Assembly: GCF_001887355.1 (NCBI RefSeq)
Contig: NZ_MPIN01000010.1
Span: 64,878-128,877, forward strand
DNA length: 64,000 nucleotides
Reading direction: 5' to 3'
Source: Cystobacter ferrugineus
GTDB taxonomy: Bacteria > Myxococcota > Myxococcia > Myxococcales > Myxococcaceae
Shown here one piece after another: positions 42,668 to 54,002 of the stretch (the stretch's first letter is position 1; every line of letters begins with the position of its first letter). Position numbers and translations under genes: made by a program. The notes under the pieces are model-generated. The model did not search any database and was not told the DNA's origin. It saw only the letters and a list, made by a program, of their open reading frames with translations.

Positions 42668-43052
42668 GGGTCCATTTGCTACCCCAGGTGGCTGGGAGAG
42701 CGACAGCACGTTTCGCCGCCGTCTTTCATATAAGCGCCAAACACTTTCACCAGGGCGCCAATCATGGGTATCCAGCCCAAGAACGACGCCTGGACCTCTC
42801 AACCGTTTCCAGGGAATTCACGTTGTTCAGTAGAAAACGATTTTACTTGAAGTCCATGTTGAGCCCATGCGAAGAGATTGAACCCAAGAGAAGGAACTCC
42901 AAGGCAGACATCCGCGAACACTCCTCGGGGGGGACGGTTTCCGTTCGAGATGGAGCCCTCCCATCCCCTCGAAGAGCGACACGTGTCCGCCAGGAGCGCC
43001 GGATGGACCGGTATCCTGCTCGACATCGAAACCAGCCGTTGAGGGGCACTGG
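42668..43052. other. 385-base intergenic region before the first Hint gene
   Basis: No gene. It holds the first copy of the duplicated leader (42745-43052) described separately. The divergent GIDE gene promoter must also lie here. Confidence 0.5.
42745..43052 (+). repeat. Duplicated leader, copy 1, upstream of Hint lipoprotein 1
   Basis: Shared with 44210-44513 in a series of identical blocks: CAGGGCGCCAATCATG just after the start; a 21-base block at 42834-42854 (AAAACG...GAAGTC); GTGTCCGCCAGG onwards at 42983-43003; and GAAACCAGCCGTTGAGG-type sequence up to the ATG. The unit continues into the coding region, so gene and leader were duplicated together. No ORF lies in it. Confidence 0.85.
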
Positions 43053-43970
43053 ATGAAGAACAGTGGCTTTACGCTGACCGTGTGGCTTGGAATGACGCTC
43101 TCCACCCTGGGCTGTGGCGACGCAACGGGAGTCGTCGAGGCGGATGAACTCAAGAGCAATGCCCAGACTCTGGAGGCCCTGCGTCCTATAGAAGATGTGG
43201 AACAGCTTCCGGAAGATCCGGGAGGAGGAGGTGGTGGTGGCGTGCCGACCACCGGCACGCCGATGAGTCTCGCGACGTTCCAGGCCCTGGGAGCCCAGAG
43301 CGACGCGTCGCTCCGCTGTACGGGCGCCATCGGCCCCGACGCGTGCCAGGCGGAGCTCGCCTATGGCCTGAGCATCAACCTCATCACCCTGGCGGCCTAC
43401 AATTGGGGGCTCGCCAACGGCTACTACCCGGTCATCGATCGCCACAACAACATCGGCGCGGTCTGCAAGTGCGGGTGCTTCGAGGCCAACGCCCTCATCC
43501 TGACGCGGGACGAGCAGGGCACCACCGCCTGGGTCCCCGCCAAGGACATCAAGACCAGCACCACGCTCTTCGCGCTCAACGAGGCGGCCACGCTGAGCCG
43601 GCCCACCTTCGACGCGAAGTCCATCAAGTCCGCCACGCGCGGTGAGGAGAAGCCGGCCCTCTATGCCTTCGAGCTCGACAACGACCGCACCCTGAAGGTG
43701 ACGCAGAACCACGGCATGCTCCTGAGCGATGGCCGGGTCGTCGAGGCCCGCACGCTCGGCGTCGGCGCCGAGTTCGTGGCCCTGGACGGCTCGACCGTGC
43801 GCGTGCGCGACCTGCGCTTCGAGCACACCGCCGAGGACGTGTACAACTTCGAGGTCAGCGCCCAGGACCCGGCCGGTCACATCATCGCCGCCGAGGGCGT
43901 GCTCGTGGGTGACCTGGCCTGGCAGAACCAGCTCAGCCGTGAGCTCGGCTCCATCGCCGTGCGCCGCTGA
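43053..43970 (+). CDS. Hint (Hedgehog/intein) domain lipoprotein 1
   Basis: 305 residues from ATG 43053. An N-terminal signal ends at a lipobox-like LSTLGC (Cys21). A Gly-rich linker (57-64) leads into a 60-residue domain with paired Cys89/Cys98, then a Hint domain from Cys142: CGCFEANALILTRDEQG (the GCF start of Hedgehog Hog domains), FELDNDRTLKVTQNHGMLL with the Thr217-x-x-His220 block, YNFEV, and EGVLVGDLAWQN at the end. The usual terminal His-Asn of splicing inteins is replaced by VGD, so the domain can probably start the Cys-driven cleavage but not splice. It may cleave off or modify the N-terminal part outside the inner membrane. Paralogue of the next gene. Confidence 0.82.
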   Translation: MKNSGFTLTVWLGMTLSTLGCGDATGVVEADELKSNAQTLEALRPIEDVEQLPEDPGGGGGGGVPTTGTPMSLATFQALGAQSDASLRCTGAIGPDACQAELAYGLSINLITLAAYNWGLANGYYPVIDRHNNIGAVCKCGCFEANALILTRDEQGTTAWVPAKDIKTSTTLFALNEAATLSRPTFDAKSIKSATRGEEKPALYAFELDNDRTLKVTQNHGMLLSDGRVVEARTLGVGAEFVALDGSTVRVRDLRFEHTAEDVYNFEVSAQDPAGHIIAAEGVLVGDLAWQNQLSRELGSIAVRR

Positions 43971-44513
43971 GCCCGTTCCTGCCCGACGAGCATGGCGCCA
44001 CTCGGCCGCCCTCGTCGGGAGCGGTTCAGCGCCCAGCCCATATCCAACGCGCAACGCGCTCAGCCAGCCCCCCGCGGTTCCACCCGCGGTGCGTCAAAGT
44101 CCAGGTCGCGCAAGCCATTCGATTCCCGTTGTGAACCAGGGCGGTCGCGTTCATGGCGCGCTCCCGCCCTGGTTGGGAACCTGAGCGCTTATCTAAATCC
44201 GCCAACCGCTTTCATCAGGGCGCCAATCATGCTGGACATCCCAATCGCCTTCAGGTAATTCCCGCCGTTCGCCTCAAAACGATTTTACTTGAAGTCATAG
44301 CAGAGTCTGTGAGAAGAGACTTCCCCGAGAGGGCCGATCCCTCTTCGAGGGAGGGAACTCCCAGGCAGACGTGCGCAATCACTCCGGGGGGGGAGGCGAT
44401 ACCCGTTTGGTCTCACCCATCCACACCCGCTGAGAGCAGTGAGTGTCCGCCAGGAGCGCCGGACGATCCGGCATTCCCGCTCGACATCAAAACCAGCCGT
44501 TGAGGAGCACTGT
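43971..44513. other. 543-base intergenic region between the two Hint genes
   Basis: No gene on either strand. Bases 44210-44513 are the second copy of the leader. Bases 43971-44209 hold no repeat partner, terminator or other feature that I can identify. Confidence 0.5.
44210..44513 (+). repeat. Duplicated leader, copy 2, upstream of Hint lipoprotein 2
   Basis: Second copy of the 42745-43052 unit. The identical 21-base block is at 44276-44296 and GTGTCCGCCAGG at 44443 onwards. Spacing from the block to the ATG is 238 bases here and 219 in copy 1, so the copies have diverged by small insertions. Confidence 0.85.
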
Positions 44514-45353
44514 ATGAAGAACAGTGGCTTTACGCTGACCGTGTGGCTTGGAATGACTCTCTCCGCTCTGGGCTGTGGCGGCGTGGCAGCAGCGCCCAGT
44601 GAGACGGAGTCGGCCGGACTTGCCGAGCAGAGCACGTCGCTGACCGAGGTGATGGGGCTCGATCAATTCAAATACCTTGGATTGACGAGCATCGAGCGCT
44701 GCGCGCGGGCGATCAGCGCCGAGGAGTGCAAGATCGAGCTCGATTACGGCTTGGAGCAGAACCTCATCACGCGGGAGGCCTATGACTGGGGTCTCGTCAA
44801 CGGCTACTACCCTGTCATCGGCCGTCGGGACACGGTCGATGCCGTCTGCAAGTGCGGGTGCTTCGAGGCCAACACGCTCATCCTGACGCAGGACAAGCTT
44901 GGCGCCCCGGCATGGATCGCCGCGAAGGACATCACGAAGGAGACGACGCTGTTCTCGCTCAACGAGCAGGCCACGTTGAGCCAGCCCACCTTCGACACGA
45001 AGCCCATCCTCGCTTTCACCAAGGGCGAGGAGCACCCGGCCCTCTACGTCTTCGAGCTCGACAACGGCCACACCCTGAAGGTGACGCAGAACCACGGCAT
45101 GCTCCTGAGCGACGGCCGGGTCGTCGAGGCCCGTACCCTCGAAGCGGGCGCCGAGTTCGTGGCCCTGGACGGCGCGACCGTGCGCGTGAAGAACCTCCGG
45201 TTCGAGCACACCAAGGAGGACGTGTACAACTTCGAGGTCGAGTCGCAGATCTCGGCGGGTCACATCATCGCCGCCGAGGGCGTGCTCGTGGGTGACATGG
45301 CCTGGCAGAACCAGCTCGGCCGCGAGCTCGGCTCCATCGCCGTCCGCCGTTAG
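44514..45353 (+). CDS. Hint domain lipoprotein 2 (paralogue of the previous gene)
   Basis: 279 residues from ATG 44514. It repeats the first Hint lipoprotein: nearly identical signal (MKNSGFTLTVWLGMTLSALG) with Cys21, but a different N-terminal region and no poly-Gly linker. The Hint domain starts at Cys116 (CGCFEANTLILT), has the TQNH block with His194, and ends EGVLVGDMAWQN without His-Asn. The shared Hint and signal and the divergent middle suggest that the middle is the cargo. It lies 544 bases after copy 1, with the duplicated leader between, and 81 bases before the next gene of the exported-protein operon. Confidence 0.82.
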   Translation: MKNSGFTLTVWLGMTLSALGCGGVAAAPSETESAGLAEQSTSLTEVMGLDQFKYLGLTSIERCARAISAEECKIELDYGLEQNLITREAYDWGLVNGYYPVIGRRDTVDAVCKCGCFEANTLILTQDKLGAPAWIAAKDITKETTLFSLNEQATLSQPTFDTKPILAFTKGEEHPALYVFELDNGHTLKVTQNHGMLLSDGRVVEARTLEAGAEFVALDGATVRVKNLRFEHTKEDVYNFEVESQISAGHIIAAEGVLVGDMAWQNQLGRELGSIAVRR

Positions 45354-45434: not shown

Positions 45435-46223
45435 ATGCCGCTCAGCAAGACGAAGTGGGCGGGCCTCGCGCTGGCCGCGACCTCGCTCATCATTGGACTC
45501 TCATTTTCCTGGGGCACGGACTCCCCGCCCCCCGCGCCCGCGCCCAGCGTGGCTCCCGCGGCGGTGACGGAACAGGCAATGGCCCGGATGGAAATCAAGG
45601 CCGCGGAGACCGCTCGCGAGCGGCTCGCGCAGATTCCCGAGCCTGTCGTTCCCCAGGAGGTGGGAGGGTTCTCCCATGAGGAGATTGGAAAGGCGTCCGT
45701 CGCGTTCCGCGAGATGCTCTCCGTGCAGGGCCTCTACAATCAGCGGGTGGCCCGGGGGCGCATCATCGACCGTCTCCTCGAGTCCCCTCGTGGCGCGGAC
45801 ATCGCGTCGAGGACGCTGACGGATCCCTCCTTCGCCCGGGAGGCCTTTGGAGATCTGCAGGCCGAGGCCCGTCTCTTCTCCATTGAAGTCTTGAAGGTCG
45901 CGGCCACACGGGGCCAGGAAGGCCCCCTGCTGCGCTCCGCGGAAGCCGTCGCTCAGCAGCTCTCCCAGTCGGATGATGGGGTCGCACCGCTGGACGCGGG
46001 CAGGTCCGCGGATCTGCGCGACATGGTTCGTGCCGTCATCGAAGTCAAAAGTGTCGAGGCCTTCTCGGATGGAAACCCACGGCTCGTCCGGGAGATGGGT
46101 TACGCGTCCACGCTCTCGCCTCGAGTGAAGTCCCTGTACGACGAAATCCTGTTCGCCTACCTCAAGCATCAATATGGCCGAGAGCGCGCCACCGAAATGG
46201 CCGCTGCCCTCCTGGACGGCTGA
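45435..46223 (+). CDS. Membrane-anchored helical protein, function unknown
   Basis: 262 residues from ATG 45435 (GGAG nine bases upstream). One membrane helix or uncleaved signal (KWAGLALAATSLIIGLSFSW) is followed by a Pro/Ala linker and a mostly helical domain with long charged helices (MARMEIKAAETARERLAQI, EEIGKASVAFREMLSVQGLYNQRVARGRIID, MVRAVIEVKSVEAFSDGNPRLVREMG). No family recognised. It starts the run of seven exported-protein genes and is followed six bases later by the subtilisin-like gene. Confidence 0.72.
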   Translation: MPLSKTKWAGLALAATSLIIGLSFSWGTDSPPPAPAPSVAPAAVTEQAMARMEIKAAETARERLAQIPEPVVPQEVGGFSHEEIGKASVAFREMLSVQGLYNQRVARGRIIDRLLESPRGADIASRTLTDPSFAREAFGDLQAEARLFSIEVLKVAATRGQEGPLLRSAEAVAQQLSQSDDGVAPLDAGRSADLRDMVRAVIEVKSVEAFSDGNPRLVREMGYASTLSPRVKSLYDEILFAYLKHQYGRERATEMAAALLDG

Positions 46224-46229
46224 GAACCC

Positions 46230-47660
46230 ATGATCCGCGCCACTCTTCTCACGATGTTCGTCTCCACCGGGTGTCTGGCCGAGCCCCACGTGACTCCCGC
46301 TCCGCCGAAGTTGGATGGCGACGCGCCGGATCTCGCCCAGCGCATCGCGGCCGCGAAAGCCAATGTCCTGGCCGACACCTGCTTCCAGACCGAGCAGGAT
46401 GCTTCGGTGTGTGACTGGGGGGATTTCGCCTATGACCCCAGCCAGTTCGCGATGACGCAGAGCACGAACGAGGCCATCCTCATCGTCGATGGCTTCTCGG
46501 AGCTGCCGTTCCGGGCCATTCGTTACCAGAACCGGCTCAAGGGCTTCTTCCGCGTGGGAGAAGGGGGAGAGTTCTCTCCCGTGTCCTTCTCCTGGCACGC
46601 GCCGGTGGTCCTCCACGAGACGCTCCGCGGGTTCGCCGATCCCGATCTCATCCCCGCCGAGTCCCTTCGCGAGCTCGGTGGCCCCCTGACGGACGTCTAC
46701 GGCCCCTACGCCCTGAACGCGGGCCACGGCAGCTACGTCTTCTCCATCCTCGTCGAGGCCAACCCACGTCAGCCCATCGTGATCCTCGACCATCTGAGGT
46801 ACGACAAGTTCGCGCTCGAGGAGTTCTGTGATGGCTCCGGGACGGATGCCTCCATCAGCCGCTTGCGCGAGAAGTCGCGGGTCGTCGCGGCCAACCTCCA
46901 GTGGTTGATGGCCGAGCAGAACGTGCGCTTCGTGAACGTGAGCGCGGGAGAATCGCTCGACACGATGCGGGAGCTGTGGACGAGCCGCTGCCGGGGAATC
47001 CGCCCCAGCGACTCGATCCTTCGCAAGAAGCTCAACGCCTACGCGCCCATCGTCGAAGCGCTCTACAAGACGCCTGGTGTCTTCGCGGCCCAGGCGTCCA
47101 TCAACGCCTCCAACAGCCAGGACTTCCCTTTCGACTATCCCTCACCGAGCTACCCGAACCGGGTCCTGGCCGGATTCTTCACCACGCTGAACTCGGGCCT
47201 GGATGAGAAGGGCAGGAAAGACGGCACGAGCAGCACCACGCTGTCGGGATGGCCGGGGCGGCAGAACGTCGACATCTACCTGAACAGTGGTGTGCAGCCC
47301 AACCGCCCCTTCCGGTACAACACGACGCCGCTGCTCCAGGTGGACTCCTTCGGTGTCGACATCTATCCCATCACCCAGACCACCACGTCCTGGATCGCGC
47401 CGCTGGCCCTCTCCCGCTTCATCCACCTGCGTTACGAGCGGTTCGGTGCCGAGGAGATGTCCGATGACCTCATCTCGCGCATCCGGAGCGAGATGACGCC
47501 AGGTGAGTGCCCCGAGCAGCCAGAGTCGAACTGCGCCTATCAGGATCCGCTCAAGCACGGGCAGATCGAGGCGGTGCGTCTTGGCTACCGGGCCCTCGAG
47601 TACGTGGAGCCGGATTCCCAGCAGTCAACGTTGTCTCGACGGATGGAGTATTCCCAATGA
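46230..47660 (+). CDS. Lipoprotein with subtilisin (S8)-like layout
   Basis: 476 residues. Lipobox FVSTGC (Cys15) at the end of a short signal. Segments line up with S8 peptidases: Asp87 in AILIVDGFS, His166 in NAGHGSYVFSIL (GHGTHVxGI pattern), NVSAGES, an oxyanion-region PGVFAAQASINASN followed by a YPSPSYPNRVLAGFF strand (as in AAxGN...YPAxYPxVIxV), and Ser387 in TTTSWIAPLALSRF (GTSxAxP pattern). The motifs are degenerate, so the protease may be inactive or specialised. It would sit on a membrane facing the periplasm or surface. Its stop overlaps the next start by four bases (ATGA). Confidence 0.68.
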   Translation: MIRATLLTMFVSTGCLAEPHVTPAPPKLDGDAPDLAQRIAAAKANVLADTCFQTEQDASVCDWGDFAYDPSQFAMTQSTNEAILIVDGFSELPFRAIRYQNRLKGFFRVGEGGEFSPVSFSWHAPVVLHETLRGFADPDLIPAESLRELGGPLTDVYGPYALNAGHGSYVFSILVEANPRQPIVILDHLRYDKFALEEFCDGSGTDASISRLREKSRVVAANLQWLMAEQNVRFVNVSAGESLDTMRELWTSRCRGIRPSDSILRKKLNAYAPIVEALYKTPGVFAAQASINASNSQDFPFDYPSPSYPNRVLAGFFTTLNSGLDEKGRKDGTSSTTLSGWPGRQNVDIYLNSGVQPNRPFRYNTTPLLQVDSFGVDIYPITQTTTSWIAPLALSRFIHLRYERFGAEEMSDDLISRIRSEMTPGECPEQPESNCAYQDPLKHGQIEAVRLGYRALEYVEPDSQQSTLSRRMEYSQ

Positions 47661-48277
47661 AGCAGATATCGAGTGTACTGGCCATGGTGGTGCTCCTGGG
47701 CTCGGGTGTGTCGGCTGCCCAGGACGAACAGGACGTGGAGGTGTCTTTCATTGACAATGGAGGGCTCAGCTACAAGGTCAATCCCTCCGCCTTCACCACC
47801 ACTCAATCCTATGGGAGCTTGACGTCGGAGGGCTACCTGGTTCCTCGCGCCGGTCTGATCCGCAATGGCTGCTTCGCCAGCACGCCATGGATCGACGTGA
47901 ACCATGGGCAGGGAAAGGCCTATGCCTTTCCGCACTTCACCCTGGAGTGGTGGGGTGAGGTGAACCCGGTGGAAGAGCCCGACGATACGCTGCTGCGGCT
48001 GACGCTCGAGGTGAAGCGGCAGAATGGCACCACGTCGCAGGTTCGCAGCTACATCTACACGGGACTGCTGGACCTGGAACTCCGGTACTACAACGAGGAC
48101 CGGACCCAGTTCTACTACTACGGGCGTCTGGACAACCTGGCCGACCAGGCGGAGATGCTCTTTGGAAACATCGCGGTCTCTCCCGGGGACAAGATCCGCT
48201 ACAACGTGTGCGATCTCTACGAGGGCGGCAAGCTCCTCATCCGCGACCTGACGTTGACGACCCTCCCCATCTTCTAA
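47657..48277 (+). CDS. Exported beta-rich protein, function unknown
   Basis: 206 residues from ATG 47657, overlapping the S8-like gene by four bases. Signal peptide MKQISSVLAMVVLLGSGVSAA. The mature part is rich in Tyr, Asn and beta strands (GLSYKVNPSAFTTTQSYG, TLEWWGEVNPVEEPDD, TSQVRSYIYTGLLDLELRYY, FYYYGRLDNL) and has two cysteines. No family recognised. Coupled translation with the subtilisin-like gene suggests joint action. Confidence 0.75.
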   Translation: MKQISSVLAMVVLLGSGVSAAQDEQDVEVSFIDNGGLSYKVNPSAFTTTQSYGSLTSEGYLVPRAGLIRNGCFASTPWIDVNHGQGKAYAFPHFTLEWWGEVNPVEEPDDTLLRLTLEVKRQNGTTSQVRSYIYTGLLDLELRYYNEDRTQFYYYGRLDNLADQAEMLFGNIAVSPGDKIRYNVCDLYEGGKLLIRDLTLTTLPIF

Positions 48278-48289
48278 GAGGTGAGCACA

Positions 48290-49102
48290 ATGAAGACTGT
48301 CACTTCATGGGCCGCGGCCGCGGTGTGTCTGCTGGGTGTCGAGGCCCAGGCCCTCGGTGAGAACCTGCTGTCCTGCCAGAGCAGCGGCTACATCCTGTCG
48401 CGGTGCACGCTGCTCAAGCTGCCCTTCGCCACGCCCGTCGTCGAGGACGATACCACCTTCGAGACGACGTACACCGTCACGTATGACTTCGCCTGCACCG
48501 GCCACTCGGTGAACGTCGGGGTCTCCACGGGGCAGCAGTACGTGCCCTTCGTGATGGGCGCCAGGAACGCCACGCTCCAGCTCAACGGCAGTGGCCGGGT
48601 CGAGTCGTATGATCCGGACCCGCAGACCACCCTGCGCCTGAGCTTCAAGCCGGGCTGCGCCCTGACGGTGTCCAACGTCAGCATCTTCCCGTCGGGCAAC
48701 ACCCTGGTGCTGTGGACGTCCCAGGCGCAATCCCAGGCGAAGATCATCAACCTGTCCCTGAAGCAGTACCTGCTCGCCAAGGACTACCAGGCGCTGGCGA
48801 CCTGGGATGACTCGAAGCTCATCCTCCTGCGCGACAAGCTCCAGGGGCTCGTCACCGCCTTCCCCACCAACATCCACTACAAGGTCATGCTCGACACGGT
48901 GAAGAGCGCGCTCGACAACGCGCCGCCTCCGTACTCGTACGAGCAGCTCGCCGAGTCGGGGGAGGAAGTCATCGCGGACCTCCGCGACGAGCTCGACGCG
49001 GAAGTCGCCAGGGGACAGAACCTCGTCAACCGCTTCATCCGCTGGCAGCAGCAGGCCGAGCAGTCCCTCGTGGACGTGCTCGCCAGCATTCCGCCGGCCT
49101 AG
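48290..49102 (+). CDS. Exported protein, beta-rich then helical, function unknown
   Basis: 270 residues from ATG 48290 (AAGAGG eight bases upstream; GTG 48281 possible). Signal peptide ends near AQALG. The N-terminal 130 residues alternate polar and hydrophobic residues with three cysteines (LLSCQSSGYILSRCTLLKL, YDFACTGHSVNVG, FKPGCALTVSNVSI); the C-terminal 110 are helical with a probable coiled coil (ESGEEVIADLRDELDAEVARGQNLV). No family recognised. Twelve bases follow the previous stop, consistent with a shared transcript. Confidence 0.72.
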   Translation: MKTVTSWAAAAVCLLGVEAQALGENLLSCQSSGYILSRCTLLKLPFATPVVEDDTTFETTYTVTYDFACTGHSVNVGVSTGQQYVPFVMGARNATLQLNGSGRVESYDPDPQTTLRLSFKPGCALTVSNVSIFPSGNTLVLWTSQAQSQAKIINLSLKQYLLAKDYQALATWDDSKLILLRDKLQGLVTAFPTNIHYKVMLDTVKSALDNAPPPYSYEQLAESGEEVIADLRDELDAEVARGQNLVNRFIRWQQQAEQSLVDVLASIPPA

Positions 49103-49313
49103 CCACACCGTTTCCCGACAATCCCCATGGCTCCACGAGGGCTCTTCCCGGGGGCGCCGGCATCACCGGCCGCGTCCGTGAGGGCCTTCGTGTGTCTTGG
49201 GGAAGGAATCCGGCCGGGTATTTCAACCACGGTCTGGCCCGTGGGCCGGACTGGCATGGGCGCGACCCGGGCCCCGGCGAGTTCAAGCGCACCATGTGGA
49301 GAGGGGGAGTTCC

Positions 49314-50447
49314 ATGAGACGTTGGATGGTATCTCTGTTGTTGACGGGCTCGCTCGCGGCGCCAGGTCTGGCCGCGGCCGCCGGCGACGACCTGGCCGTG
49401 CGCGAGGACAAGGCCCTGCGCGCCTACGCCGCGGCCACCGATCAGTCGCAGCGCCATGGGCGCTACCGGCAGGCCCGTGCCCTGCTGCTCACCCAGGAGG
49501 GCAACATCACCACCCGGGTCGAGGCGTGGGAGAAGGCCACCCAGCAGTGGGTGCTGGGTTGGTACAAGGTGATGGCGCTCGCGGATCTGCAGAAGGACAT
49601 TCCGTACACCCAGTTCGAGGCGGAGCTGCAGCAGCTACTGCGCGTCCAGCACGACGGGCTGTTGCAGTTGTCCAATGACGCCAAGAGCGTGAAGGCCTCC
49701 GCCGACATGGCCCTGGAGCTGCTCGGTCCGGCCAACCCTGGCACCACTCCCGCGGAGATCGGCGAGTACGCGAGCGTGCTGCAGGCCCTGACCCAGCGCG
49801 AGAACGAGCTGCGCACGGCCATCACCCAGTTGTCCGCCATTCCCACCAGCCGGATGGCCCGGCTCGAGACGCTCGCGCAGACCTCGCGGCAGATCATCCT
49901 CACCCGCGTGCGCGTCGCCCTGCTCAAGAACGCCCGCTATCCGTTGGAGCAGACCCTCGCCTCGGTCCAGGCGCTGCTCACCGCCGAGCAGGTCGTGGAT
50001 CCCGTCCTCGCGGCGCTCACGCGGGCGGAGAACGACATGAACCGCTTCGCGCTCAACCTCCAAGTCTACCACGTGGAGGAGGCGCTCGCGCAGGGGCGCA
50101 CCCTGTGCACGAGCAGCCAGGCGAAGCTGGCCGCCCTCACCTCGCCCGCGGCCTATGTGGCGCAGGCCCGCTCGCGCGCCACCCAGCTCTGCTCGGCCCT
50201 CGAGGCCCATGCCAGCGGGCTGCTCTCCTATGGCATCCCCAAGGCGGACCTCGTGTATGAGTCCATCGCCGTGGAGAAGGCGTCGCTGCGCACGATCTGC
50301 AAGAGCGCGCAGCCGCCCGTGGCGTGCGAGAAGCTCGCGATCCTCGCGGCCCTGACCCTGCCCGACCTCCAGTCCATGAACGACGCCAAGCTCCGCTTCG
50401 TGGAATACGGCTGGAGCGAGCTGTTCAAGGCCGCCACCCATCCCTGA
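49314..50447 (+). CDS. Exported helical protein, function unknown
   Basis: 377 residues from ATG 49314 (AGAGGGGG upstream). Signal peptide MRRWMVSLLLTGSLAAPGLA-AA. The mature protein is almost all helical with heptad-like segments (RYRQARALLLTQEGNITTRVEA, LQALTQRENELRTAITQLSAI, LAQTSRQIILTRVRVALLKN), three or four Cys in the C-terminal half (LCTSSQ, ATQLCSALE, RTICKSAQPPVACEKLA). No family recognised. It is separated from the previous gene by 211 bases, the largest gap of this operon. Confidence 0.75.
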   Translation: MRRWMVSLLLTGSLAAPGLAAAAGDDLAVREDKALRAYAAATDQSQRHGRYRQARALLLTQEGNITTRVEAWEKATQQWVLGWYKVMALADLQKDIPYTQFEAELQQLLRVQHDGLLQLSNDAKSVKASADMALELLGPANPGTTPAEIGEYASVLQALTQRENELRTAITQLSAIPTSRMARLETLAQTSRQIILTRVRVALLKNARYPLEQTLASVQALLTAEQVVDPVLAALTRAENDMNRFALNLQVYHVEEALAQGRTLCTSSQAKLAALTSPAAYVAQARSRATQLCSALEAHASGLLSYGIPKADLVYESIAVEKASLRTICKSAQPPVACEKLAILAALTLPDLQSMNDAKLRFVEYGWSELFKAATHP

Positions 50448-50461
50448 GGAGACCACCGACC

Positions 50462-52048
50462 ATGAACACACGACTCATCGCAGTGGCCATGTCGTCGCTC
50501 GTCTCGCTGGCGACGCTGGGCTTCTCCACCCCCGCCTCCGCGGCGACGTGCGAGAACATCCAGATCAACAAGAAGCCGCCCATCGCCTTCGTCCCCATCC
50601 CGATGAAGAATCCCCAGACGGGCGAGCCCTACCTGCCCAACGAGGAGATCGAGATCGCGCCCGGGCAGAAGATGCTCGCGGGGGACTTCTTCAATCAGAT
50701 CAACGACCTCGAGTATGACCTCAACCAGTGGGGCTACTCGCTGCGCGACACGGACGTCGCCACGCTCGCCGAGCTCAAGAGCTGCATCGAGCTGCTCTCC
50801 CAGCAGAGGGATCTGATCCTCGAGGACATCCGGCAGAACGGCGTCGGGGCCTGGACGCCCGAGGAGCGCCTCAAGCAGATCGAAGCCGCCTGGAAGCGCT
50901 ACCAGGAGCAGCTCCCCTCGTGGGACGAGCTGTACGAGAAGGCGAACGACGAGAGCGTGAAGGTGTACCTGCCCGAGGTGCCGCCCTTCAGCGCGCCCGT
51001 GCCGGAGATCAAGCGCGCGGAGCTCAAGCCCGTCTTCAAGGAGCGCACCTGGTCGTTCGACGTGGGTGAGAAGTCGAAGTTCTGGGTGAACGCCCAGGCG
51101 AGCCTGTCCTTGCGCGCGAGCAAGGTGGACGCGGTGGGCGACGCGCGCGGAGCCGTCAACGCGGCGCTGATGGGCAAGTGGGAGGGCGAGGTGCTCTCGG
51201 CCCGCGCCCACGCGGAAGCGCCCGCGACGAGCGACGGCAAGCTCCTGCTCGAGGTGCGCGGCCTGGGCAAGGTGCTCTGGAGCAAGAACTGGGAGATGCC
51301 GGGCATCCACTACGACGACAAGGTGGAGTGGCCGCTGGAGTACGGCGTGGACTACCGCTTCGCCATCGGTCCGGTGCCCATGCGCGCCCGGGTGGGCTTC
51401 CGGGCCACGGCCGGCGCGAAGTATGGCTATGACATCCTGCCCCTGCAGGTGGGCGCCCATGCCGTGCCCTTCGCGTCGGCGGATGCCTACGCGCAGGCCG
51501 GGGCCGACATCGGCATCGCCGGCGCGGGCGTGGGTGGCCAGCTCATCCTCATCCAGGACTACGTCACCCTGCAGGGCAACGCGCGGGTGGAGTTCGACGA
51601 GGAGCCCAGCCTCGTCGTGGAGCTCATCGGCACCAACAGCCTCACGGCGCTCAGCGGCCGGCTCTATGCCTACGCCTACATCAACTACCTCTTCGGCAAG
51701 TGGAAGGGGGAGTGGAACTTCTTCAAGTGGGAGGGCATCCGGCGGGATGGAAACCTCTTCAACTTCAAGTGGGTGTGGACTCCGGGCGGGGTGAAGGCCA
51801 CCGGCGACGTCAAGGCCGAGGACGTCATGGAGGTCAACCAGACCAACGCCGAGCTGCGGCTGATGGAGATCGAGAACAAGTCGCAGAGCCACGTCTGGAA
51901 TACGATGAAGGCCATCTCCGACGACGCCAACAGCCCCGCCGCGGCCAAGGTGCTCACGGAGCAGGGACGGCTGACGTCGCTCGCCACGGGAGTGGACGCG
52001 CTGCTGAACCAGTATGAGAACGAATTGAAGGAGTGGACGAAGTCATGA
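50462..52048 (+). CDS. Large exported protein, beta-rich, function unknown
   Basis: 528 residues from ATG 50462. Signal peptide MNTRLIAVAMSSLVSLATLG ending near PASA-ATC. After a helical/coiled region (RDLILEDIRQ, EERLKQIEAAWKRYQEQ) comes a long beta region with regular alternation: KFWVNAQASLSLRASKVDAVG, VRGLGKVLWSKNWEMPGIHY, RFAIGPVPMRARVGFRATAG, LYAYAYINYLFGKWKGEWN. The last 90 residues are helical. The middle resembles a lipid-binding or barrel-like sheet. No family recognised. The stop overlaps the next start by four bases. Confidence 0.75.
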   Translation: MNTRLIAVAMSSLVSLATLGFSTPASAATCENIQINKKPPIAFVPIPMKNPQTGEPYLPNEEIEIAPGQKMLAGDFFNQINDLEYDLNQWGYSLRDTDVATLAELKSCIELLSQQRDLILEDIRQNGVGAWTPEERLKQIEAAWKRYQEQLPSWDELYEKANDESVKVYLPEVPPFSAPVPEIKRAELKPVFKERTWSFDVGEKSKFWVNAQASLSLRASKVDAVGDARGAVNAALMGKWEGEVLSARAHAEAPATSDGKLLLEVRGLGKVLWSKNWEMPGIHYDDKVEWPLEYGVDYRFAIGPVPMRARVGFRATAGAKYGYDILPLQVGAHAVPFASADAYAQAGADIGIAGAGVGGQLILIQDYVTLQGNARVEFDEEPSLVVELIGTNSLTALSGRLYAYAYINYLFGKWKGEWNFFKWEGIRRDGNLFNFKWVWTPGGVKATGDVKAEDVMEVNQTNAELRLMEIENKSQSHVWNTMKAISDDANSPAAAKVLTEQGRLTSLATGVDALLNQYENELKEWTKS

Positions 52049-53937
52049 AGAAGCTAGGCGCGGGACTGCTCGTGGCTCTGGTTGGAGGCGTTCCTCTGGC
52101 ATGGTGGAAGTGGGGTCATGGGGATGCGGCGGAGTTGTCGCTCACGTGCATCCCGGGGAAGTCCCGCGCCTATGCCTTGTCGTATGAATCACGCGGACAG
52201 GTGTCGGATCCCACCTTCGGCCTGTCCCAGACGGATGCCCCCGAGGGCCAGTCCGTCGAGACGGTGGTGAAGGGCCGCTGGCGCGAGACGTGTGTGCGCG
52301 GCGATGCCACGGGCCACGTGCTCGAGGTCGCCGTCGAGGAGGCCCAGGGCCACTTCACCTCCAAGGGAGCGCTCGGCAGCGGCCCCGCCCCCGAGGACGT
52401 GAGCGGACTGGTCACGGGCAACAGCTACGTGGAGCTGGGCGCGGACGGGAAGGTGCGCTCCATCCACTTCGACCCCCGCATGTCTCCCCTGGGGCAGAAC
52501 CTCGTGCGCGACATGCTCTCGCTGCGCTCGATGCACCTGAGCCTCCCCGCGCGCGACGGCGCGAGCTGGACCTCCGACGAGGAGGACTTCAATGGGCGCT
52601 ACAGCGCGCCCTACACGCTCGCGTTCCCCGAGGAGGGGCTGGCGCGGGTGACCAAGGGGCCCCGCACGTACGCCGCCACGGGCGCCTCGAAGCTGACGAA
52701 GGTGGCGCCCCTGGTGCGCTCGCTGCCCTCCACCGGTGGCGAGTGGGTGCTGGAGCTGGACACGCACCAGCCCCGGAGCCTGCGCTCCCACGTGGAAGTG
52801 GAGCTCGTGGCGAGCTCGCGCGTCATCGGCCGCTCCCTGAGCCACCTGGAGCTGACGCCCCCCGAGCAGGCCGTCGTGGCCACGGTGGACGTGCGGCAGT
52901 TGCAGGAGTCCTTCCAGGCCCGTACCGCGCGGGGCGTGCGGCCGGGAGATCTCGCCGCGCGTGACGCGGACGCGCGCATCGAGGAGCGCATCCAGCGCGA
53001 GGAGCTGGGAAGCGACACCTGGTCGTCCCTGCTGGAGAAGGCGGGTGAGGCCTCGCCGGATCGCGCCAGGCTCTTCCTCAAGTTCAAGGCGCTCTTCCTG
53101 CTGCACCCGGAGACCTGCCGGGACGCGAGCGCCCTGCTCGCCATGTCCGACGGTCCCCATGACACCACCTTCCAGCTCGTGGCGGGCGCGCTGGTGTCCG
53201 CTGGTACGCCCGAGGCCCAGCACGCCCTGGTGGCCGCCATCGACGCCACGCGCGACCGGACTCCGCACCAGCGCACGCTGAGCGGCCTGCTGGGCACGCT
53301 CTCCCACCCCAACGAGGACGCGGAGTCGGTGCTGCATTCGCTCGTGAAGGGGCACGCGCAGGCGGAGGTGCGCGACACCGCGCGGCTCGCCCTCGGCAAC
53401 GTCGCCCGGAGCCTCCAGGGACAGGAGCCCCAGCGCGCGGAGCGGCTGATCCAGGACAGCGTCGCGTACGCCCGGAGCGCCGAGAGCCAGCCCGAGCGGA
53501 TCCTCGCCCTCCAGGCGCTCGGCAACACGGGGGCGACCCAGGGCCTCGAGGTCATCGAGCAGACGGTGAGGGATCCCGATGTCTCGCTCCGCCGCACGGG
53601 GGCCTCGGCGCTGCGCTTCATCGAGACGGAGCAGGCGGAGCGGCTGCTGCTCGAGCTGGTGACGCGGGATGCGTCCGAGAGCGTGCGCGGGGAGGCGGTG
53701 TCCGCGCTGTCCTTCCGGACGCTGTCGGCCGGAACGGTGGCCGAGCTGCTCCAGCGCGTCCGGCAGGATCCTTCCGAGTCCGTGCGGCAACTGCTCGTCA
53801 AGGTGCTGGCGGACGAGGCCCCGCGCCATGCCGGTGTCCTCTCGACGCTGGAAGAGGTCAGCCGGACCGATGCCTCGGCCGCGGTGCGCAAGCTGGCGAC
53901 GCTCGTCCTGCTCCGCCTCAACGCCTCCGAGGGGTAG
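52045..53937 (+). CDS. HEAT-repeat protein with N-terminal beta-sheet domain, lipoprotein/vitellogenin-like layout
   Basis: 630 residues from ATG 52045, overlapping the previous stop by four bases. N-terminal membrane helix or signal (GAGLLVALVGGVPLAWWKW). Residues about 30-280 are beta-rich with two cysteines (LTCIPGKSRAYALSYES, RETCVRGDATGHVLEVAVEE). From about 290 on helical HEAT-like repeats run to the end, e.g. RILALQALGNTGATQGLEVIEQ and VRGEAVSALSFRTLSAG. A sheet domain followed by an alpha-superhelix recalls large lipid-transfer proteins (vitellogenin/MTP), which I infer from layout only. It could shuttle lipid or lipoprotein in the envelope. Last gene of the exported operon. Confidence 0.7.
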   Translation: MKKLGAGLLVALVGGVPLAWWKWGHGDAAELSLTCIPGKSRAYALSYESRGQVSDPTFGLSQTDAPEGQSVETVVKGRWRETCVRGDATGHVLEVAVEEAQGHFTSKGALGSGPAPEDVSGLVTGNSYVELGADGKVRSIHFDPRMSPLGQNLVRDMLSLRSMHLSLPARDGASWTSDEEDFNGRYSAPYTLAFPEEGLARVTKGPRTYAATGASKLTKVAPLVRSLPSTGGEWVLELDTHQPRSLRSHVEVELVASSRVIGRSLSHLELTPPEQAVVATVDVRQLQESFQARTARGVRPGDLAARDADARIEERIQREELGSDTWSSLLEKAGEASPDRARLFLKFKALFLLHPETCRDASALLAMSDGPHDTTFQLVAGALVSAGTPEAQHALVAAIDATRDRTPHQRTLSGLLGTLSHPNEDAESVLHSLVKGHAQAEVRDTARLALGNVARSLQGQEPQRAERLIQDSVAYARSAESQPERILALQALGNTGATQGLEVIEQTVRDPDVSLRRTGASALRFIETEQAERLLLELVTRDASESVRGEAVSALSFRTLSAGTVAELLQRVRQDPSESVRQLLVKVLADEAPRHAGVLSTLEEVSRTDASAAVRKLATLVLLRLNASEG

Positions 53938-54002
53938 CCCCGCGCGCCTCGGACCCGGCCGGTCCGTTGTTATGCGCCACCTCTAGCGACGTGGCCTTGC
54001 TA

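Follow-up and report, generated by a model that had tools for sequence, protein, structure and literature searches.

Seven genes for exported proteins (g1 to g7, named by their order along positions 45435-53937, all on the + strand) were analysed in a 64,000-nucleotide stretch (i.e. the window; contig NZ_MPIN01000010.1, positions 64,878 to 128,877 of the forward strand) of the 12.05 Mb genome of the Myxococcota species Cystobacter ferrugineus. The last of these genes, g7, is almost certainly homologous to the N-terminal two thirds of the animal large lipid transfer proteins (LLTPs; i.e. vitellogenin, MTP and apoB). On balance, g6 and g7 appear to make up, as two halves, a bacterial lipid-transfer protein with the architecture of animal MTP/vitellogenin, with an upstream block of Hint genes as a putative maturation unit.

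g7 is homologous to the helical module of large lipid transfer proteins

Comparison of g7 with the Pfam profile Vitellogenin_N produced a match of 1.8e-16 and 60.3 bits (cut-off of 24), in which residues 377-584 were aligned to positions 359-585 of the 590 in the profile. The original prediction had described g7 as a HEAT protein and had found no gene that resembled a named system, a statement that does not survive this match. The matched region lies in the helical part of g7, where HEAT_2 was also detected. All 19 members of an alignment of the window g7 and 18 homologues from named contigs (i.e. alignment A2) matched Vitellogenin_N at E ≤0.01. As HEAT repeats could give a generic match, the distribution of both profiles was examined across the source genome. 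HEAT_2 matched 67 stretches, some of them more strongly than g7, and Vitellogenin_N matched one place, i.e. g7. Vitellogenin_N had no match in any of 14 control genomes from outside the Myxococcota.

An AlphaFold2 model of the window g7 had a mean pLDDT of 72.8, with values of >90 across most of the helical part, and exhibited a beta region that encloses a helix, followed by an alpha horseshoe, the chain ending with a helical domain. In a Foldseek search of 350,542 PDB chains, rows 1-6 were occupied by MTP (three chains), lipovitellin and bee vitellogenin (two chains), with E values of 7e-15 to 2e-8 over 626-760 alignment columns; the next row was a designed repeat protein at 2e-7. Alignment by VIA matched residues 33-613 of the model to residues 26-613 of MTP with a Z of 16.8 over 487 residues. 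The N-terminal part of the g7 family was also assessed with the HEAT repeats excluded (i.e. alignment A13; window residues 34-312) by scanning each member against Pfam at E values up to 10. Vitellogenin_N was matched by 5 of the 19 members, with a best value of 5e-4, as compared to two members for the next family and single chance matches that reached 4e-3.

Several observations weigh against this assignment. The N-terminal part of the window g7 alone matched no Pfam family in the same scan, and a profile of this part retrieved no LLTP chain from the PDB. It was also modelled at low confidence, with ten-residue pLDDT means of 27-77 before residue 310. VIA placed MTP 26th with a root-mean-square deviation (rmsd) of 16.1, behind shorter HEAT proteins of higher Z, and by its own warning the parts of the model outside residues 313-630 were barely tested. 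The N-terminal results, the position of designed HEAT proteins above MTP by VIA Z and the equal scores of HEAT_2 and Vitellogenin_N in g7 would suit a different explanation, in which g7 is a HEAT-repeat scaffold only, its vitellogenin likeness is generic to alpha-solenoids and g6, a beta protein, is unrelated. We regard this explanation as very unlikely because the other HEAT_2 proteins of this genome miss Vitellogenin_N, the HEAT-free N-terminal part matches it in some family members, six LLTP rows come first in Foldseek over long alignments and MTP also ranks first, independently, for a model of the g6 family. The homology of g7 to the LLTP helical module is thus firm; on the Pfam and PDB scans, the relationship of the N-terminal part is supported by sequence but not beyond doubt, and this part is likely to be the LLTP N-sheet.

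g6 as a candidate lipid-cavity half and its conserved pairing with g7

A homologue of g6 from Myxococcus eversor (L052:10113-11264) was chosen for folding because its alignment is closer. The model had a mean pLDDT of 76.7 and contained long beta strands. Foldseek placed MTP (PDB entry 6i7s) in rows 1 and 2, with E values of 1.4e-3 and 3.5e-3 and probabilities of 0.96 and 0.99, while lipovitellin and a second MTP structure were found in rows 10 and 14, respectively. By VIA, residues 127-377 of the model were aligned to residues 610-877 of MTP (8eoj; 206 residues, rmsd of 4.7, Z of 4.6) and residues 23-376 were aligned to 224 residues of 6i7s between positions 208 and 877 (Z of 4.9). In the numbering of MTP, the 8eoj alignment of g6 starts where that of g7 ends (610 versus 613). 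This position can be compared with the domains of MTP, which are given in a review (PMC3337244) as a barrel (22-297), a helical domain (298-603) and a lipid-binding sheet (604-894). The 12 strands of the g6 model exhibited a polar/hydrophobic alternation of 1.74 as compared to 0.99 ± 0.20 for shuffled strands, with none of 2000 shuffles reaching 1.74. This alternation fits a lipid-facing sheet and also a barrel.

Other results for g6 tell against its assignment to a lipid cavity. The sequence of g6 returned nothing beyond noise from Pfam, NCBIfam or PDB sequences, and the folded homologue, at 22% identity, is not the window protein itself. The Foldseek search of the model had no PDB row at ≤1e-3, the TM of the two best rows was 0.25-0.30, and the 6i7s alignment, in spanning 208-877, extends beyond the C-terminal sheet. 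Lipid binding by g6 and g7 is a prediction from sequences and models. Outer-membrane barrels reached a higher Z in VIA (up to 6.3) than the 4.6-4.9 obtained for MTP. In an alternative reading, g6 would be a beta-barrel or channel of the outer membrane with g7 as its periplasmic arm, the two forming a conduit for export of lipid or protein to the surface. FyuA, LptD, NalP and OmpF were aligned at a Z of 5.2-6.3, the strands of g6 are amphipathic, and, by eye, g6 appears exported and g7 membrane-anchored. The barrel rows of higher Z (≥5), however, covered fewer g6 residues (92-173) than MTP (206-224), and MTP was ranked first by Foldseek. A C-terminal aromatic residue is the usual signal for assembly of outer-membrane barrels, and such a residue (F or Y) was present in just 3 of 17 members of the g6 family. 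This alternative is considered unlikely. The fold ranking, the complementary domain boundary and the conserved pairing with g7 make it likely, as far as a model can tell, that g6 supplies the sheet of a lipid cavity. A direct sequence link between g6 and g7 was also sought and none was found.

The pairing of g6 with g7 is conserved. Across a survey of 193 Myxococcota genomes, relatives of g7 were present in 71 and relatives of g6 in 70, with both in 60. Among the matches listed, 97 of 123 g6 matches were located ≤4 kb (measured as the gap) from a g7-family match, as compared to 0.3 expected by chance; 66 of these pairs had the order g6-g7, 24 had g7-g6 and seven were divergent. Addition of Vitellogenin_N and profile matches under a looser limit of 6 kb (start to start) raised the paired number to 106 of 123, including one pair (G041:C22:250) with another g6 copy in between. 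Of the 17 matches still unpaired, one lies in a locus that stops at a contig edge (L131) and two others in loci without a g7 (L135 and L136). In distant Myxococcota, the sheet domain forms the C-terminus of proteins as long as 1426 aa, whose genes remain adjacent to g7, in one case (L051) with a 4-nt overlap. Eight large g6 variants had no Pfam domain over the cut-off.

A search of named contigs with g7 alone returned no locus, and a search with alignment A1 returned 18. The g6 gene adjoins g7 in 17 of these, represented in L066 by 84 aa at the edge of the contig, while in the remaining locus (L061) g7 itself lies at the contig end. These loci include Myxococcus xanthus strain AM003 (L067, a g6-g7 pair) and Archangium violaceum (L055). 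Plasmid records searched with a g7 homologue contained no relative.

We propose that an N-terminal helix anchors g7 in the inner membrane, from which the N-sheet and the helical horseshoe would reach into the periplasm. The exported g6 would then, through its amphipathic beta-sheet, likely close a lipid-binding cavity against the horseshoe of g7, and the two proteins would take lipid from the membrane and deliver it to an envelope acceptor. On the present sequences and models, transfer of lipid by g6 and g7 is somewhat favoured.

Variant arrangements were observed at several loci. Two clusters (L125 in G077 and L140 in G107) contain two g7-family genes each, one of which adjoins a large g6 variant of ~808 aa. 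A 2096-aa reading frame (L135:2002-8292) has the g6 sheet domain as its C-terminal part, and g7 was not detected within the 16-kb stretch. Convergent to one g6-g7 pair, a set of genes (L068:9599-13892) encodes an HMG-CoA reductase, a GHMP kinase and a diphosphomevalonate decarboxylase-like protein; L069 has size-matched genes at the corresponding place.

The Hint genes and the modular layout of the window

The upstream Hint pair of the original prediction is real (see Table 1 for matches to PT-HINT). An alignment of 14 Hint proteins contained invariant Cys112, Cys116, Thr191 and His194 residues and no terminal His-Asn; the motif A cysteine (Cys116) and the T-x-x-H of motif B (Thr191, His194) were present in 14/14 and, for gene B, PT-HINT was matched at its cut-off. 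The two window genes arose by tandem duplication (window positions 42790-45323) that included ~250 nt of upstream sequence, with blocks of 73-93% identity.

Linkage between the Hint family and g6 was examined by searching 20 genomes with this alignment, matches of E < 1e-50 being termed strong. Among the matches listed, 54 were strong, with 36 located ≤12 kb from a strong g6 place (E < 1e-80), 13 located ≤6 kb from a member of the g2 family and 46 meeting either description. Of 51 weaker matches to the Hint part among those listed, a set from which rows matching the N-terminal half alone were excluded, none was ≤12 kb from g6 and one was ≤25 kb. From the side of g6, 36 strong places were available in the genomes searched for Hint (one place in G126 was left out), and 23 had a strong Hint gene within 12 kb among the Hint matches listed. 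Two points detract from this linkage: the other 13 of the 36 places had no strong Hint match within that distance among those listed, and the count is biased upward because most sequences of the alignment were taken from the surroundings of g6-g7. The counts consequently show that this Hint family is mostly linked to g6-g7, and do not speak for Hint proteins in general.

A second conserved block is formed by Hint, g1 and g2. Among eight loci fetched around g2 matches, the Hint-g1-g2 order recurs in four (twice in L141, and in L142, L143 and L146), with no g6-g7 within the fetched stretches of 14-20 kb. Homologues of g1 lie between Hint and g2 in each of these arrangements and in L032. The g2 family is present in 22 of the 96 family genomes, and Asp87, His166, Ser387 and the lipobox Cys15 are invariant in 11/11 homologues. 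The contexts of the first three residues are subtilisin-like, while g2 had no match to a protease profile, including S8, in Pfam or the PDB. At four other loci (L038, L055, L056 and L058), the genes after g6-g7 encode Hint, a helical protein with an anchor and a genuine subtilase (Peptidase_S8 in 7/7). Homology of g1 to the transmembrane-anchored helical proteins beside other Hint genes (families F3 and F12) was tried by hhalign and gave probabilities of 10-42, so that the likeness is confined to position and architecture. Comparison of g2 with the S8 proteases that occupy equivalent positions gave probabilities of 18 and 1.5, and homology was not demonstrated.

In the proposed maturation unit, the Hint domain would form a thioester and thereby free or modify the N-terminal part of its lipoprotein, g1 would act as an anchored helper and g2 as a serine-protease-like lipoprotein, roles suggested by their residues. 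More speculatively, given the recurrent linkage, the Hint-matured lipoprotein could be the acceptor or the cargo of g6-g7. Cleavage of LLTPs has precedents: according to PMC1783640, furin cleaves the insect LLTP apoLp-II/I, and cleavage of a crustacean relative occurs at a subtilisin-like site. By analogy, the protease of this locus may play a similar part.

The same genes can be read as a cassette for surface-lipoprotein display or kin recognition, in which a secreted ligand is shaped through Hint cleavage and g2 protease action, and g6-g7 is a chaperone that moves no lipid. Hint, anchor and protease do recur jointly whether g6-g7 is present or absent, and the presence of multiple g7 paralogues in many genomes points to diversification. 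Against this, g6-g7 occurs apart from a nearby Hint at the 13 g6 places noted above, and the folds matched are those of lipid-loading proteins. We consider such a cassette improbable. Coupling of the proposed lipid-transfer pair to Hint is itself tentative, and somewhat doubtful.

Two further observations concern the Hint family. In L141 and L142 (G085 and G166), the clusters are expanded to three Hint genes with two or three of g2 type, and the fetched sequence has no g6-g7. The N-terminal half of the Hint protein (profile positions ~1-170) matches alone at G085:C1:1837314, G081:C8:56329 and G166:C26:18648, apart from the listed matches to the Hint part.

The features of the window are listed in Table 1. 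The seven co-directional genes of the original prediction are present and exhibit a coding-type third-position GC, with a hydrophobic N-terminal segment (judged by eye) in 7/7 and the invariant lipobox Cys15 in g2. The spacings from g1 to g7 are 6, -4, 12, 211, 14 and -4 nt; the "several" four-base overlaps thus amount to two ATGA overlaps among six junctions (g2/g3 and g6/g7), and the gap of 211 nt 5' of g5 could accommodate a second promoter. The hairpin 3' of g7 is a weak candidate because three were found in the region as compared to 4.4 expected by chance.

Table 1. Features of the Hint-g1-g7 region in window coordinates
Feature	Coordinates	Strand	Description
Hint gene A	43053..43970	+	Lipoprotein-type N-terminus and C-terminal Hint domain; PT-HINT 3.5e-5, under cut-off
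Hint gene B	44514..45353	+	Lipoprotein-type N-terminus and Hint domain; PT-HINT 3.7e-6, exactly at cut-off
g1	45435..46223	+	262 aa; N-terminal membrane anchor and helical domain
g2	46230..47660	+	476 aa lipoprotein; subtilisin-like Asp87/His166/Ser387 pattern
g3	47657..48277	+	206 aa, secreted; coding frame; overlaps g2 by 4 nt
g4	48290..49102	+	270 aa, secreted
g5	49314..50447	+	377 aa, secreted, probably helical
g6	50462..52048	+	528 aa, secreted; beta-sheet domain; proposed lipid-cavity half
g7	52045..53937	+	630 aa, membrane-anchored; vitellogenin-N/MTP-like, N-sheet and HEAT-type helical domain; overlaps g6 by 4 nt
Terminator-like hairpin	53950..53966	+	3' of g7; pattern scan

The intervening genes appear restricted in distribution. 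Homologues of g3 (26%) and g4 (64%) were found in a single locus (L032 of genome G154) among 46 loci, and g5 was found, among the 96 family genomes, in this genome and G154 (71%), with one weak partial match. The full nine-gene order (i.e. the Hint pair and g1-g7) occurs in one other genome, again G154. We interpret this region as two conserved modules, Hint-g1-g2 and g6-g7, brought together with three lineage-specific genes between them. Gene order, the conservation of which had been put forward as the test of the original prediction, is therefore kept by module, whereas the nine genes as a unit recur once. The wider suggestion of a secretion, maturation and transfer device at the envelope fits well for maturation and lipid transfer, given the homology of g7 and the probable sheet of g6, but not as one widely conserved nine-gene set.

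Comparison with known systems

The origin of LLTPs, the animal machinery that loads fat onto yolk and blood lipoproteins, is an open question for which g6-g7 provides a lead. If the proposed relationship is true, a bacterial relative with the cavity half in a separate gene exists across much of the Myxococcota and would offer a simple system for studying both the function of the parts and their origin; the tractable species M. xanthus, in strain AM003, has the pair. The pair would also point to an uncharacterised envelope lipid route in myxobacteria, many of which carry sterol-synthesis genes according to PMC12004948. LLTPs are described, in PMC1783640 and PMC3337244, from animals and as lipoprotein-assembly proteins. 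No report of a bacterial relative of vitellogenin or MTP was found among the matches listed from open-access papers, a body that leaves most subscription journals outside, and the main text of PMC6791001, on bacterial lipid-transfer homologues, contains none of five terms of this kind. As the Vitellogenin_N profile reaches g7, databases may already hold a bare domain label for such proteins.

A bolder proposal traces the yolk, apoB and MTP proteins of animals to a two-gene lipid loader in the myxobacterial periplasm, either as its descendants or through an ancient common ancestor, and has this pair working with a Hint-processed lipoprotein. The g7-g6 order of 24 of the 97 listed pairs is that of the animal chain. 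In animals, Hedgehog rides on lipophorin, to which the bacterial arrangement would be a parallel. We rate this proposal as unlikely.

Among bacterial systems, the Hint proteins of the window were compared by features with Hedgehog-type Hint proteins and with a group of secreted bacterial Hint proteins (MXAN_6253/STIAU_1829), and share with them a secreted N-terminus, a C-terminal Hint domain, the motif A Cys, T-x-x-H and the lack of a terminal Asn; M. xanthus MXAN_6253 is included in a bacterial Hint group in PMC2362128. The g2 protein resembles Subtilase S8 in its invariant Asp, His and Ser, unlike which it lacks a match to the S8 profile.

The closest likeness of g6-g7 is to the MTP large subunit (6i7s and 8eoj), as g7 covers its N-barrel and helical domain (26-613) and the g6-family model covers residues 610-877. 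MTP acts in the lumen of the endoplasmic reticulum, the topological counterpart of the periplasm. MTP is, however, one chain, whereas g6 and g7 are two bacterial proteins, and g7 carries, as judged by eye, a membrane anchor at its N-terminus. As compared to vitellogenin, lipovitellin and apoB, g7 is likewise over the Vitellogenin_N cut-off, with lipovitellin and bee vitellogenin in Foldseek rows 4-6, but it is much shorter, has no other vitellogenin/apoB domain from Pfam and leaves the C-terminal sheet, if this is g6, to a separate gene. The pair was not filed as an LLTP because that sheet is not in the same chain as g7. Rather, g6-g7 is taken as a split bacterial relative of the LLTPs, probably with a similar mode of action.

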